In this document: one piece after another, positions 2,349 to 11,041 of the stretch
Position numbering within the stretch: the first letter of the stretch is position 1
How the letters are laid out: the number at the start of each line of letters is the position of its first letter
From: Pseudonocardiales bacterium
GTDB lineage: Bacteria; Actinomycetota; Actinomycetes; Mycobacteriales; Pseudonocardiaceae
DNA length: 53,346 bases
NCBI GenBank assembly: GCA_023252195.1
Contig: JAHEXI010000023.1
Location: forward strand, 1 to 53,346
Direction: 5' to 3'
Notes under the pieces: model-generated
Told to the model about the DNA's origin: nothing
What the model saw: the letters and a program-made list of their open reading frames with translations, nothing else
Databases searched by the model: none
Program-made: the position numbers and the translations under genes

Positions 2349-3622
2349 TCATCCGGTTCGTGCTGCGGCCGCACGTTGCATGACCTCCCATCTCCAGTGT
2401 GCGAGGAGCCCCGGCCGGTCTCGTTTGATCCCGACCAGGGTCCTGGCTGCTCGTCGTGGTGCTCGCCGTAGGTGTTTGTACTTGCGGCGGGCCCACCGCA
2501 CCAGGTACCGGTCGATGTGGAAGAGCACGTTGACAGTTTCCGACGGACAGAATCGCCCGTAGTACGCCGCCCACCCGCCGGCCCTTGAGTTGATCATTCT
2601 GGCGATGTCGGCGAAGGAAAGGTCACTGCGTAGATGGAAACGCATCCCGCGGATCTGCTGCCGGATCGACGTAGCGGCCTTGCGACTGATGGCCGGAGAG
2701 AAGGTCGTGAACATCGTCTCGTCCTTCTTCTTCGCCCCGCGTGGTTTGAACGTGTATCCCAGGAAGTCGAACGTCACCTGCTCATGCGAGCCATGCCGCC
2801 CGGTCATCTTGCAGTACACGATCCTCGTTTTGGTCGGATGCAACCGCAACCCGCCACACTCAGCCAGACGCGTCGCTATGGCGTCTCGCAACCTCCGGGC
2901 CTGCTGCTGGCTCACACAGTGCACAATCACATCGTCGACGAACCTTTCGAACGGCACCTCAGGGAACTCCCGCGCCATCCACGCGTCGAACGCGTAATGC
3001 ATGAACAGATTCGCCAACAACGGTGAAATCGAGGCGCCCTGCGGACTGCCCCGATCACGACTGACCAGTGTCCCATCCGGCTGCGCCACCGGGGCGGACA
3101 GCCACCGCTGCACATACATCAGGATCCACTTGTCATCCGTGTGGTGAGCGACCGCCTTAAGAATCAGATCGTGATCGAGATTGTCGAAGAAACCTTCGAT
3201 GTCCAGGTCGAGAACCCACCCGTACTTCCAGCACCGCGCCCGGCAGGTTGCCACCGCGTCCAGCGGTGAGCGACCCGGACGGTACCCATAGGAGTCGGCG
3301 TGAAATAGCTTCTCCACCACCGGCTCCAGGTAGGCCACCGCCACCGTCGGCGCGATCCTGTCCGCCACAGTGGGCACACCCAGGACCCGCCTACCACGAC
3401 CCCCATCCTTCGGGATCTCCACCATCCGCACCGGGGACGGGAAGTAACTTCCCGACGACATCCGATTCCACAACTTGTACAGGTTGTTCGTGCCGCCCCG
3501 CGCGAACTGCTCGACCGTGACCCCGTCGATCCCCGGCGCCCCTTTCTTAGCCCTGACCTTCTCGAATGCCGCCATGACCACCTGCTTGGAGATCTCGTAC
3601 GGCTTCGAACCTGACTGACTCA
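2349..3622 (-). CDS. ltrA: group II intron reverse transcriptase/maturase (N-terminus truncated)
   Basis: This encodes an RNA-dependent DNA polymerase that also acts as splicing maturase for its own intron. The similarity starts at KPYEISKQVVMAAFEKVRAK and covers the RT core. Visible motifs are KDGGRGRRVLGVPTVADRI, the YGYRPGRSP block, DLDIEGFFDNLDH, the SPQGASISPLLANLF motif and a catalytic FVDD box (ERFVDDVIVHC, where YADD is commoner). The maturase X/thumb region follows (FDFLGYTFKPR, then GGWAAYYGRFCPS). The protein ends soon after, with no HNH endonuclease domain. No ATG, GTG or RBS lies at the proper N-terminus. The open frame continues upstream to 3962 but there it is antisense or fragmentary recombinase DNA. 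It is probably not functional as a mobile unit because the ribozyme 5' domains are missing. Confidence 0.85.
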
Positions 3623-4327
3623 GCTGGCCCCTCCCGGAAAAAACAAGGCGGCCCAGTTCGACAAGCGGATCGTGACGTTCCTGACCGCCGCGGAGGTCGA
3701 CGCCCTGATCGACGCTCCGGACCAGACCCGGTGGGAAGGCCGACGCGACCGCACCCTCATGTTGATCAACCCCTCGACCAGCGCGAAGCCGAGGAACGAC
3801 CGCAACCCGGTAGCCAGGCGTTCGGCTGCCCGGACGCTGATCTGCTGGCATTGCGACGTCATGAACCTGCTGATGTCGGCAGCGGTCAGCTCGTCGAGTC
3901 CGCGACCTGCGTGGACGGTCAAGAACAGCGTCACCACTCGCCCGTAGTTGGCGATCGTGCACGGTTCGAGGCCATGCTCCACCGTGAGGTACTCGCGGTA
4001 CCGCGCGACCAATAGCTGTTGCTCAGATCGCGGTTGTCGGACAATCGGTTCCTGGGCGACGCCCACGTCCCGCAGGTAGTCGACCATCCAAGCCAACATC
4101 TTCGGCGTGGGACGCCGCCCCGACCACCGAACAGTGCCGAGGAACCGGCTGATCAACTCCAGACTCAGTTCCTCGGCGGTAACCCCGCACTGCTGCAAGA
4201 ACCGGCTCAGTCCGCGGGCCAGCCGCATGTGCAGTTCCGCGACCCGCGGCGTGTAGCCGAGCGTCGTCAACCGTTCCGCCATCCCCGACGCCCACGGCGC
4301 CAACGGGCCGACCATCACCATCGTCAT
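3620..4327 (-). pseudogene. tyrosine recombinase, N-terminal half only
   Basis: The recognisable part is 4327-3771. The ATG at 4325-4327 has GAGGAG 7 nt upstream. It encodes a SAM-like, core-binding N-terminal domain (RYREYLTVEHGLEPCTIANY, then ERLATGLRSFLGFALVEGLI). Right after VEGLIN, at the palindrome 3761-3770, the similarity ends. From there the frame only reads the antisense of a plus-strand integrase fragment, to a stop at 3620. The catalytic domain is therefore missing. The normal partner sequence (FLTAAEVDAL...) is present but inverted, which suggests an inversion or ligation between two related recombinase genes. The protein may still be expressed, but it would have no recombinase activity. 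Confidence 0.6.
3624..3770 (+). pseudogene. tyrosine recombinase fragment (start of catalytic domain)
   Basis: This plus-strand frame reads AAQFDKRIVTFLTAAEVDAL followed by IDAPDQTRWEGRRDRTL. That is the linker and first helices of the catalytic domain of a phage-type integrase (consensus: FLT..EvdALl.APD..TW.GRRDhaLL). The similarity stops at about 3760, exactly where a 10-bp palindrome GTTGATCAAC (3761-3770) marks the junction with an oppositely oriented recombinase N-terminal half. The box I arginine and all later catalytic residues are absent here. Confidence 0.55.
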
Positions 4328-7911: not shown

Positions 7912-8330
7912 GTGGTCATCCCTCAATCTGGATCCTTGGGCTCTCCTGCCGACCTGCCGCGCACGGTTGGCGCCTTGCGCGCCTCCGGGCATGTGCAGCG
8001 TGATGTCAAGGGCGAGGGCCCTGCTGGCCGGGCACGACGTGGTGCTGCTGGGGAGCGCGGTCAAGGCAAGACCCGACTACTCCGCGCGCTCGTCGGACTG
8101 CTCGATGAGTGGACCCCAGTCATCGAAGGCGCCGAGCTGGCTGAACACCCCTATCAGCCGATCACCCCAGGCTCGATCCGTCGCGCCGCCGAACTCGGCG
8201 ACGACCTGCCGGTGGCCTGGCTGCACCGCTCCCTGCGCTGCACCGAAAAACTCGCCACTCCCGATGCCAGCGTGGGTGACCTGATCGGCGATGTCGACCC
8301 GGTGAAGATCGCCGAAGGCCGCAGCCTGGG
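7912..8330 (+). pseudogene. decayed partial copy of the MoxR-type ATPase gene at 9578
   Basis: Bases 7912-8330 closely match the first 530 bases of the intact gene (9578-10107), including the TAGCGT hexamer 6 nt before the GTG. An internal deletion of about 100 bp removes the segment corresponding to about 9695-9795. A missing base near 8051 (CTGGGGAGCG here, CTGGGCGAGCG in the intact gene) shifts the frame. The GQGKTRLLRALVGLLDEWTP stretch survives. Homology stops abruptly after GAAGGCCGCAGCCTGGG at 8330, and oppositely oriented peptidase-like DNA starts there. The open frame that continues to 8652 is therefore chimeric. Confidence 0.75.
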
Positions 8331-8640
8331 TGCCGGAATCCACCGCTATGATCCCCGCCGTCCGCAACCGGTTCTCCATCAGGTATGGCACCTGCTGCGC
8401 CGACACCACCCTACTGAACTCAGCACTCAGCAGCGCCGCCGCCTGCTGCAGGTCGCGCGGATCGTGCAAACTCGACGCCAACAGATACATAAACCAAGGC
8501 AGCTAAATAACCTGCCCGTCAGCCCGACGAGGAATATAACTGGACTCCTGAGAGCCCAGAGCTCTGATATTCCTCGATCAGCTCGCTCGTCTCCGCCAAC
8601 CACGCACTGCGACCACCACAGGCTCAGTATCGATTGCGTC
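8331..8640 (-). pseudogene. N-terminal remnant of an M50-type peptide zinc metalloprotease
   Basis: The minus strand reads in pieces ELIEEYQSSGL, then YIPRRADGQVI, a TAG stop at 8503-8505, then LPWFMYLLASSLHDPRDLQQ and VPYLMENRLRTAGIIAVDS. This matches the PqqD/winged-helix-like N-terminus of the putative peptide zinc metalloproteases that accompany actinobacterial RiPP genes (consensus: ELlgeYegSG...YLvRRADGQViQLp.LLY...v....v.yLi..KLrPlGlia). A frameshift lies near 8536 and the TAG replaces the expected CAG. The membrane-protease domain is missing because the duplicated ATPase segment starts at 8330. The precursor-like gene lies directly upstream on the same strand. Confidence 0.5.
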
Positions 8641-8689
8641 CCCGACTCGTGACTACCCGCTGTTGGAGAGCGGACTACAGAATGTGTTA

Positions 8690-8718
8690 GGAGGGGTGAC
8701 CGCGCTGATCACCCCTCC
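8690..8718 (-). terminator. strong hairpin terminator after the precursor gene
   Basis: A perfect 10-bp inverted repeat, GGAGGGGTGA (8690-8699) and TCACCCCTCC (8709-8718), with a 9-nt loop lies 50 nt beyond the stop of the minus-strand precursor gene. No clear U-tract follows, as is common in high-GC actinobacteria. It could give high precursor mRNA levels with reduced read-through into the peptidase remnant. Confidence 0.65.
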
Positions 8719-8768
8719 CTAGCTTATGACACCGCCGCGATACCTGATGCACAGCGGACCAGGACGAC

Positions 8769-8987
8769 TCAGCCGGCGGCACCGCCGGTTCCCATGCCGG
8801 CAGTGGCATTCACCGAGCAAGCAACGAGCGCGCAGATGGCCGGGAGCGGCGAGTTGTAGTTGTGGCCGACGCCAGGCTTGCCAACGCCAGGCTTGCCGAC
8901 GCTGATCATCGACAGGACGGTACGGGCGGGCAGCAGTTCCACGTGCTGCGCCTCGAGTTCGGCAAAGGTCACGTTGTCAGACACCAT
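8769..8987 (-). CDS. candidate RiPP precursor peptide (ELLPART-type leader, Gly/Ala-rich core)
   Basis: A 72-codon gene. The ATG at 8985-8987 has AGGAGG 5 nt upstream; a GTG two codons later is the alternative start. The N-terminal half is an acidic leader (NVTFAELEAQHVELLPARTV, then LSMI). The C-terminal half is a low-complexity core with the tandem GKPGVGKPGVG, then NYNSPLPAICALVACSVNAT and AGMGTGGAAG, containing two Cys, three Ser/Thr and many Gly/Ala. Leaders of the form LE.QHVELLPART.LS occur, as I recall, in actinobacterial precursor families of the LxmA/class V lanthipeptide type. A decayed M50 peptide-protease gene lies downstream and a strong terminator follows. No modification enzyme is present nearby, so the locus is probably orphaned. 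Confidence 0.6.
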   Translation of the reverse strand: MVSDNVTFAELEAQHVELLPARTVLSMISVGKPGVGKPGVGHNYNSPLPAICALVACSVNATAGMGTGGAAG

Positions 8988-8998
8988 CAATTCCTCCT

Positions 8999-9565
8999 AG
9001 AAAACGTCTACCGCTAGGGGCAGGATCTCCGTGGTCGTGACCTGACCTAACCGTCAGATCGGGCCGCGCCCAGGTTCCACACCTATCACACACAGCTCCG
9101 TAACACTCACTCATCAGAACCCATCTGGAGGCGAGACTCACGTGAAGCAATTATGACGGACCGTAAAGGATGACCAGCGCAATGGCACTCGAATGGCGTA
9201 GCGTATTTCGACTTGGTGACCGGCTGCATACTTTCCGTTCGATAGTTACCCTCACCTATTACTACTCCGCGAACATAAGCTCCCACGGAGCGTGTCCTGC
9301 CACAATGTGGAGGTAGAACGCGTCAACTGAAGATGAAGCAGTAATTTCAAAGTAAATCGTCCGGAAGACGGGGAGTCGCGTCACTTGCGTCGACACTTCG
9401 TTATAAAGAGTCGTGTTCTCTCAGCACATCGTCGGTCCTGGGTGGAGGCGTCATGGGTGCCGGGCCCAGCCGGCATTGGCTGGCGTGTTTCGAGCCTGCG
9501 CTTCGCGGACCTTGGGATGTTGGGGTTGGCGAACCGGGATGCGGGCGGGGCGGGGCGGGCGTGCG
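8999..9565. other. long gene-free upstream region of lower GC
   Basis: This 570-base stretch separates the divergent precursor gene and the ATPase gene. It is visibly richer in A and T between about 9060 and 9420 than its surroundings, consistent with foreign origin. A 48-codon plus-strand frame (ATG 9170 to TAG 9316, with AAAGG abutting the start) is open, but I recognise nothing in it. The promoter of the precursor gene should lie near 9000-9060. No other gene is seen. Confidence 0.4.
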
Positions 9566-9577: not shown

Positions 9578-11041
9578 GTGACCTTTCACCGTCAGCGTGG
9601 ATCCACCCAGCCTGCTGAACCTCCGGCCCAGCTACCGCGGACGTTGGGCGCGTTGGGCGCGTCCGGACATGTTCAGCGTGACGTCAAGGGTGAGCTACGG
9701 GCGAACCTGCTCGCCGCCTTGCGCAGCGGGCGAAATCCGTGGCCGGGCATCGTTGGGTTCGAAGACACCGTGTTGCCGCAGTTGGAGCGGGCACTACTGG
9801 CCGGGCACGACGTCGTGCTGCTGGGCGAGCGCGGCCAAGGCAAGACCCGACTACTCCGCACGCTGGTCGGATTGCTCGATGAGTGGACCCCGGTCATCGA
9901 CGGCGCCGAGCTGGCCGAACACCCCTACCAGCCGATCACCCCAGGCTCGATCCGTCGCGCCGCCGAACTCGGCGAGGACCTGCCAGTCACATGGCGGCAC
10001 CGCTCCTTGCGCTACACCGAGAAGCTCGCCACTCCCGACACCAGCGTCGGTGACCTGATCGGCGACGTCGACCCGGTGAAGGTCGCCGAAGGCCGCAGCC
10101 TGGGCGACCCCGAGACGATCCACTTCGGCCTAGTACCCCGCTCCCACCGCGGCATCGTCGCCATCAACGAACTCCCCGACCTCGCCGAGCGCATCCAGGT
10201 GTCGCTGCTCAACGTGATGGAGGAACGCGACATCCAGATCCGCGGCTACACCCTGCGCCTACCGCTGGATGTCCTGCTGATGGCCAGCGCCAACCCCGAG
10301 GACTACACCAACCGGGGCCGGATCATCACCCCGCTGAAGGACCGTTTCGGCGCCGAGATCCGCACCCACTACCCCCGGGAGATGGCCGCCGAGGTCGCGC
10401 TGGTCGCCCAAGAGGCCGACCTGGCCACCATCGGCGCCGAGGTCGGCGAGCCGCTGCTGGAGGTGCTGGCCCGGTTCGCCCGGCACCTGCGCGCCAGTGC
10501 GGCGATCGACCAGCGCTCCGGCGTGTCCGCACGGTTCGCAGTGGCCGGCGCCGAGACCGTCGCCGCTGCCGCGCTGCGCCGCGCCGCGCTGACCGGCGAG
10601 GACCACCCGGTGGCCCGCCCAGTCGACCTGGAAGCGGTACCGGCGGTGCTGCGCGGCAAGCTGGAGTTCGAGTCCGGCTATGACCAACCATCCGCCGAAC
10701 GCGACGAGCAGGGGGAAGTGCTGACCCACCTGCTGCGCCGCGCGGTGGCTGACACCGCCCGGGCCCGGTTGCGCGGACTGGACCTCACCCCGCTGGTCGC
10801 GGCGGTCTCGGGCGGGCACCGGGTGGCCACCGGCGAGCGGGTACCGGCCCGCGAGGTGCTCGCCGCGCTGCCCGAGCTCCCGGTCCTGCACGAGGTCGCC
10901 ACCCGCCTGGGTGCCGCTCCGGACGGTCCGCCGGGCCCGATCGCCGCCGCTATCGAGCTCGCGCTGGAGTCGCTGTATCTCACCCGCAAGCTGGGCAAGG
11001 CCGCCGAAGGCGGCCGCACCGTGTACGGATCCCGGCAATGA
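9578..11041 (+). CDS. MoxR/magnesium-chelatase-type AAA+ ATPase
   Basis: A 487-residue AAA+ protein. The Walker A variant GERGQGKTRLL is near residue 90. A long ChlI-type insert (HPYQPITPGSIRRAAELGED) follows, then the SVGDLIGDVDPVKVAEGRSL block typical of magnesium-chelatase-like ATPases. IVAINELPDLAERIQVSLLN is the Walker B/sensor region and LLMASANPEDYTNRGRI is sensor 1. The next gene, a VWA-domain protein, overlaps by 4 bp (ATGA at 11038). MoxR/VWA pairs act as chaperone-like machines that insert metals or remodel proteins; the client here is unknown. Start: GTG with a -10-like TAGCGT 6 nt upstream, probably leaderless. Confidence 0.9.
   Translation: MTFHRQRGSTQPAEPPAQLPRTLGALGASGHVQRDVKGELRANLLAALRSGRNPWPGIVGFEDTVLPQLERALLAGHDVVLLGERGQGKTRLLRTLVGLLDEWTPVIDGAELAEHPYQPITPGSIRRAAELGEDLPVTWRHRSLRYTEKLATPDTSVGDLIGDVDPVKVAEGRSLGDPETIHFGLVPRSHRGIVAINELPDLAERIQVSLLNVMEERDIQIRGYTLRLPLDVLLMASANPEDYTNRGRIITPLKDRFGAEIRTHYPREMAAEVALVAQEADLATIGAEVGEPLLEVLARFARHLRASAAIDQRSGVSARFAVAGAETVAAAALRRAALTGEDHPVARPVDLEAVPAVLRGKLEFESGYDQPSAERDEQGEVLTHLLRRAVADTARARLRGLDLTPLVAAVSGGHRVATGERVPAREVLAALPELPVLHEVATRLGAAPDGPPGPIAAAIELALESLYLTRKLGKAAEGGRTVYGSRQ

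Follow-up and report, generated by a model that had tools for sequence, protein, structure and literature searches.

A conserved-leader peptide gene beside a protease relic in an uncultured soil actinobacterium, and its probable processing in trans by RRE-like membrane proteases

The window, by which we mean the whole stretch of 53,346 nucleotides that was analysed, belongs to an uncultured soil actinobacterium and contains a short peptide gene flanked by the remains of two other genes and by an intact one, as follows:

7945..8331, plus strand: 5'-part relic of a gene for a MoxR-type ATPase, convergently oriented to the protease relic (sequence match)
8332..8599, minus strand: relic of an RRE-like/M50 protease gene, N-terminal PqqD-like region only, catalytic part absent (tblastn)
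8690-8699 / 8709-8718: perfect 10-bp inverted repeat with a 9-nt loop, between the peptide gene and the relic
8772..8987, minus strand: gene for a leader peptide of 72 aa, with the leader at about 1-28 and the variable core at 29-72
8904..8984, minus strand: conserved leader FAELEAQHVELLPARTVLSM (leader-profile match, E 1.1e-16)
8988..9000, minus strand: Shine-Dalgarno sequence TAGGAGGA, directly before the ATG of the 72-aa ORF
9578..11041, plus strand: intact gene for a MoxR-type ATPase, divergently oriented to the peptide gene and used as the synteny anchor in congeners

The leader of the 72-aa peptide reads LEAQHVELLPART, and its core contains the tandem GKPGVGKPGV and two Cys residues. The original prediction had singled out this peptide for its strong ribosome-binding site, intact leader, tandem GKPGV and two Cys, all of which we found in the sequence. 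The leader matches the profile of the family described below with the invariant L-P-x-R-T (G000:C13:8904-8984, E 1.1e-16), an extra codon follows the start, and the glycine fraction of the core is 0.23. No Pfam or NCBIfam model matched the peptide at E up to 10. As for the terminator claimed downstream, the perfect 10-bp stem is present, but no T-run follows the 8690-8718 inverted repeat on the peptide's strand, and the repeat was absent from the calls of our terminator scan.

The peptide gene lies ~170 bp upstream of the protease relic. The presence of a peptide-protease relic, suspected before, was confirmed by tblastn with the Pseudonocardia bannensis protease as query (E 2.8e-14 at 8338-8599, minus strand), and the reading frame of the relic shifts near 8552-8556 and is also interrupted by a TAG. 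It is 72% identical to the closest congener protease over 75 aa (8332-8556). A role of the relic as a functional stand-alone leader-binding domain is ruled out by the frame change and the stop. The MoxR fragment and the protease relic abut at 8331/8332, and since the match of the former stops exactly where that of the latter starts, a deletion joint is suggested; we infer, as the simplest account, that one deletion fused the N-terminal third of the protease to the MoxR fragment and that the point lesions came later. The partial MoxR 5' copy (7945-8331) and the intact gene (9578-11041) have the same orientation and flank the peptide and the relic. Elsewhere in the window, the ORF at 3620-4327 (minus strand) reads like what we take to be part of a tyrosine recombinase. 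PADLOC gave no anti-phage defence match, and a phage or plasmid origin was rejected, because the 18 pattern matches in viral contigs included no relatives and the plasmid search returned no match.

The MoxR gene was found in nine of the ten congeners. In G007, G008 and G010, a peptide gene and an intact protease gene stand beside it in divergent orientation; in G004, a C-terminal protease fragment does so with no leader match; in G002, G006 and G009, neither peptide nor protease occurs within the 5-7 kb covered, and the contigs of G003 and G005 end too near MoxR to be informative for either. The tenth congener, G001, has no MoxR gene match and carries a MoxR fragment behind its protease, as in the window. 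Its peptide comes nearest to that of the window (51% over residues 2-72, with the same 23 bases in the ribosome-binding region) and is encoded ~180 bp upstream of the protease closest to the relic (72%). In the tree of N-terminal domains, the relic groups with the G001 protease (support 0.83) and apart from the proteases of the three MoxR-side cassettes. Both relic and peptide are closest to G001:C236; with the three intact cassettes they share their position, but not demonstrably their ancestry. MoxR fragments outside the window lie on G001:C236 (L208:2382-2644) and G006:C390 (L199:1-1053).

With the window peptide as query, the own genome gave 19 additional matches at E <= 0.015, so the family likeness is above chance, and a leader-only profile gave 21 matches there (one of them, C37:68277, without a clear start codon). 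The search for further ELLPART peptides proposed earlier was therefore productive, and the description of the peptide as orphaned does not hold, given these 21 matches and the two intact proteases described below. Across the genus, the profile matched 175 times in 11/11 genomes (5 to 26 per genome); G003:C167 and G004:C53 are identical in sequence and coordinates, perhaps a single contig assigned to two bins, so that the 175 leader matches, and the 19 proteases given below, may be double-counted in part. Draft assemblies underlie these counts in the own genome and in all ten congeners, and the relatives that bear names derive from metagenomes. Among the named relatives are uncultured Pseudonocardiales as well as the strain Pseudonocardia bannensis DSM 45300. 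Aligned on the leader, 56 peptides all have the P, R, T, V and S of LPxRTVxS and differ in the core, and across the family L-P-x-R-T and the E/Q before it are invariant or nearly so. Among the 106 distinct family ORFs collected, AGGAGG occurs within 20 nt of the start in 88, core glycine has a median of 0.40 (range 0.08-0.52), and Cys is present in 29 cores. The GKPGV repeat, pointed out before as unusual, is private to this peptide, whose core is of a highly variable kind, and no feature of the family. Across the family, the fraction of identical codons at leader sites with the same residue was 0.59, where core codon usage predicts 0.47 (1500 sampled pairs), which indicates that the leader is conserved chiefly at the protein level, with some similarity left in the DNA.

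Outside the genus, a search of 50 genomes with a glycine-rich family member gave no match at E <= 0.001, and the family profile matched 5/295 other genomes of a class sample in which the best 18 candidates per genome were scored; for one of the five, the weak match in G071, kinship could not be confirmed. The literature searched contained no description of this leader/protease family, the string 'ellpart' yielding unrelated words among the titles listed.

Full-length proteases number 19 in the 11 genomes of the genus, with at least one in each and two in the own genome. One of these two, C5:196238-197458, follows closely on four peptide genes; the other, C44:89655-90848, has one peptide gene beside it. 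The leader peptide that adjoins this second intact protease (L013:8022-8540, on G000:C44) has a long GGDK repeat that an N-run interrupts. HExGH and DG are invariant in the 30 aligned proteases (H207, E208 and H211; D303 and G304), and the M50 signature, HExxH with the distal D of xDG in a membrane protein, was found in 30 sequences; 7/7 proteases scored below the cut-off of Pfam Peptidase_M50 (PF02163), the best with 18 bits vs 27.2. The first 90 residues of the protease matched PqqD at 94.9% over 58 columns in hhalign, against at most 3.1% for 40 column shuffles and 0.25% for the reversed control. Searches with single sequences were weak: the Pfam scan of N-terminal domains found PqqD in 2/22 (best 3.7e-4) and PKMT_2nd in 4/22, and against the PDB, PqqD 3g2b (E 0.012) was outranked by four unrelated chains, of TAB1. 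The N-terminal alignment comprises 22 of the 30 proteases. By profile comparison, and weakly by single-sequence search, the N-terminal domain appears to be a distant relative of PqqD with the RRE fold. At L087, L201, L202, L149, L153, L155-L157 and L160, the protease is part of an open frame of 800-970 codons, and the long C-terminal parts of these frames showed no Pfam family where tested (L087, L156).

The link between protease and leader peptide recurs elsewhere in the phylum. Such peptides stand beside the protease in 5/5 outgroup loci (L087, L114-L117); at L087, the locus of Pseudonocardia bannensis DSM 45300, two of them come immediately ahead of it. A lack of ELLPART homologues near peptidases, by which the original prediction would have been refuted, was not what we saw, since they occur in congeners and in these five loci alike. 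In a phylum sample with the best 4 candidates per genome scored, the protease profile matched 26/396 genomes and 20/237 genera. A strict leader motif occurred in a short ORF on the protease strand in 17/28 loci vs 0/330 control segments, and a relaxed motif on both strands in 24/28 loci outside the own genome vs 2/60; the motif behind both counts was drawn up after these ORFs had been viewed, and the control segments came from 20 of the 25 other genomes. At L141, leader peptides are present that the motif misses. Many cores at the phylum loci consist of repeats, for example NANVAAPVNAAVAANVLSDDSVAYANAEQ.

At 30 loci taken together, two groups besides the protease and the leader peptides were present in more than three loci, ABC ATPases (5) and LuxR-type regulators (4), and no tailoring enzyme family recurred beside the protease, with crude gene calls made by a home-made composition script. 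A Pfam scan of 99 neighbour genes (2 of them, further proteases, having been replaced) gave 92 families, of which 67 had at most one member each, and none was found in more than 3 of the genes. A tailoring step seems to be absent here or unlinked. The protease loci L142, L144, L145, L151 and L251 contain another small ORF close to the protease, which lacks the leader (MKVxKxxxKxxR...GDVNAAVxANV...SRQRxVQR). Directly downstream of the protease, L147:389-1114 (minus strand) and L150:3297-3983 encode products with a signal-like start that are likely secreted and have paired Cys motifs of the CEACTTVAVAIQ / CETFAVAYQFVV type.

We propose, with a probability of about 0.7, that the window peptide is addressed by its leader to an RRE-like intramembrane protease of the M50 type, whose substrate it is, and is processed in trans, the local protease having been destroyed. 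The ~20 precursors of the own genome would share a recognition leader and differ in their cores. Once a precursor is expressed, the PqqD/RRE-like N-terminal domain would bind and read the leader, and the M50-type membrane protease would cleave it off, at a guess just behind the RTVLSM/F segment, and release the core, which would then be exported and is probably a secreted structural or surface peptide; that it acts as surface, matrix or hydration material is our guess from its composition. The intact C5 and C44 proteases would serve the window peptide in trans, which could account for its survival, and since most precursors of the own genome have no adjoining protease, processing in trans would be the rule. 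Maturation in trans had been raised earlier as a possibility, and the two intact proteases elsewhere in the own genome speak for it.

The whole locus could instead be decaying, with the peptide as a pseudogene in waiting. The peptide gene adjoins a dead protease and a dead MoxR fragment, yet the ORF, the Shine-Dalgarno sequence and all invariant leader residues are intact. No close core orthologue exists in the ten congeners (best 51%), and 4 of the 27 leader codons differ from those of the closest congener, G001; as three of these four changes are non-synonymous, purifying selection on the window leader is not apparent from this one comparison, and the extra codon after the start points the same way. 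Most family members, however, have no protease beside them, so the loss of the neighbouring one need not matter. The state of the gene suggests that the peptide is at most in the first stages of decay, and we consider decay of the whole locus unlikely.

We give still less credence to a true RiPP, in which the cores would be modified by enzymes encoded elsewhere and the protease would only finish the process. RRE-like domains are described as a RiPP hallmark (PMC10036551), and Cys occurs in 29/106 cores including the window's, but no modifiable core residue is fixed across the family and, as far as the crude gene calls at the 30 loci and the 99 neighbours go, no modifying family recurs beside the protease. 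Stand-alone PqqD-family genes are present in 11/11 genus genomes, so unlinked peptide-modifying systems are conceivable. A class V (LxmA-type) or other known lanthipeptide precursor, hinted at by the original prediction and superficially suggested by a leader and two core Cys, is highly improbable, as no NCBIfam or Pfam model matched at E up to 10 and the HopA1 family (PF17914), which we take to be the marker of class V synthetases, had 0 matches in the own genome.

If the reading as substrate and leader-binding protease is right, a leader-binding domain known from peptide-modifying pathways also runs a stand-alone route of peptide maturation, and the leader becomes a handle for finding substrates that no Pfam or NCBIfam model covers. 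The window would then be a natural test, with a substrate that has lost its own protease while two relatives of that protease remain. More tentatively, at rather less than even odds, there may be an Actinomycetota-wide two-gene route in which an RRE-like intramembrane protease and a short shared leader mature and release unmodified, repeat-rich peptides. Such a route would have glycine-rich cores here and Asn/Ala/Val/Gln repeats elsewhere, with one or a few proteases serving many unlinked precursors. If true, RiPP-style leader recognition would be used to deliver structural peptides and not for chemistry. This wider two-gene unit is more interesting than the window peptide itself.

Among known systems, PqqD / RRE (PF05402) resembles the N-terminal domain at the level of profiles (94.9%), while most single sequences miss the Pfam model (2/22). 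In epipeptides, the membrane protease YydH/LiaK is thought to cleave and release the leader-bearing peptide (PMC7026026); its model NF058609 shows a weak profile similarity to the present proteases, which reach only 37.3-58.4 bits against a cut-off of 225 (7/7), and no radical SAM epimerase recurs beside them. A parallel in architecture comes from the daptides (PMC10036551, PMC12338566): MpaP/DapP and MpaA/DapA likewise combine a membrane metalloprotease having an N-terminal leader-binding-type domain with several short ORFs whose acidic E-L-x-x leader motif ends in Pro, and the protease removes the leader, a step that is predicted for our system. MpaP itself is an RRE-dependent intramembrane site-2 protease, and its leader motif is ELExMEAP, whereas the leader here is E[LI]xx[QE]xxxxLPx[RK]; the invariant C-terminal Thr of daptides is missing from the window peptide, which reads ELEAQHVELLPAR and ends in Gly (daptide features from PMC10036551). 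The daptide protease model NF041824 gave 73.5-109.1 bits for 7/7 present proteases against a cut-off of 300, and neither MpaB/C/D/M-like neighbours nor a dedicated transporter recur beside them. Our best reading is that the proposed system, although it fails the curated models of both, works like the protease step of the daptide and epipeptide pathways.
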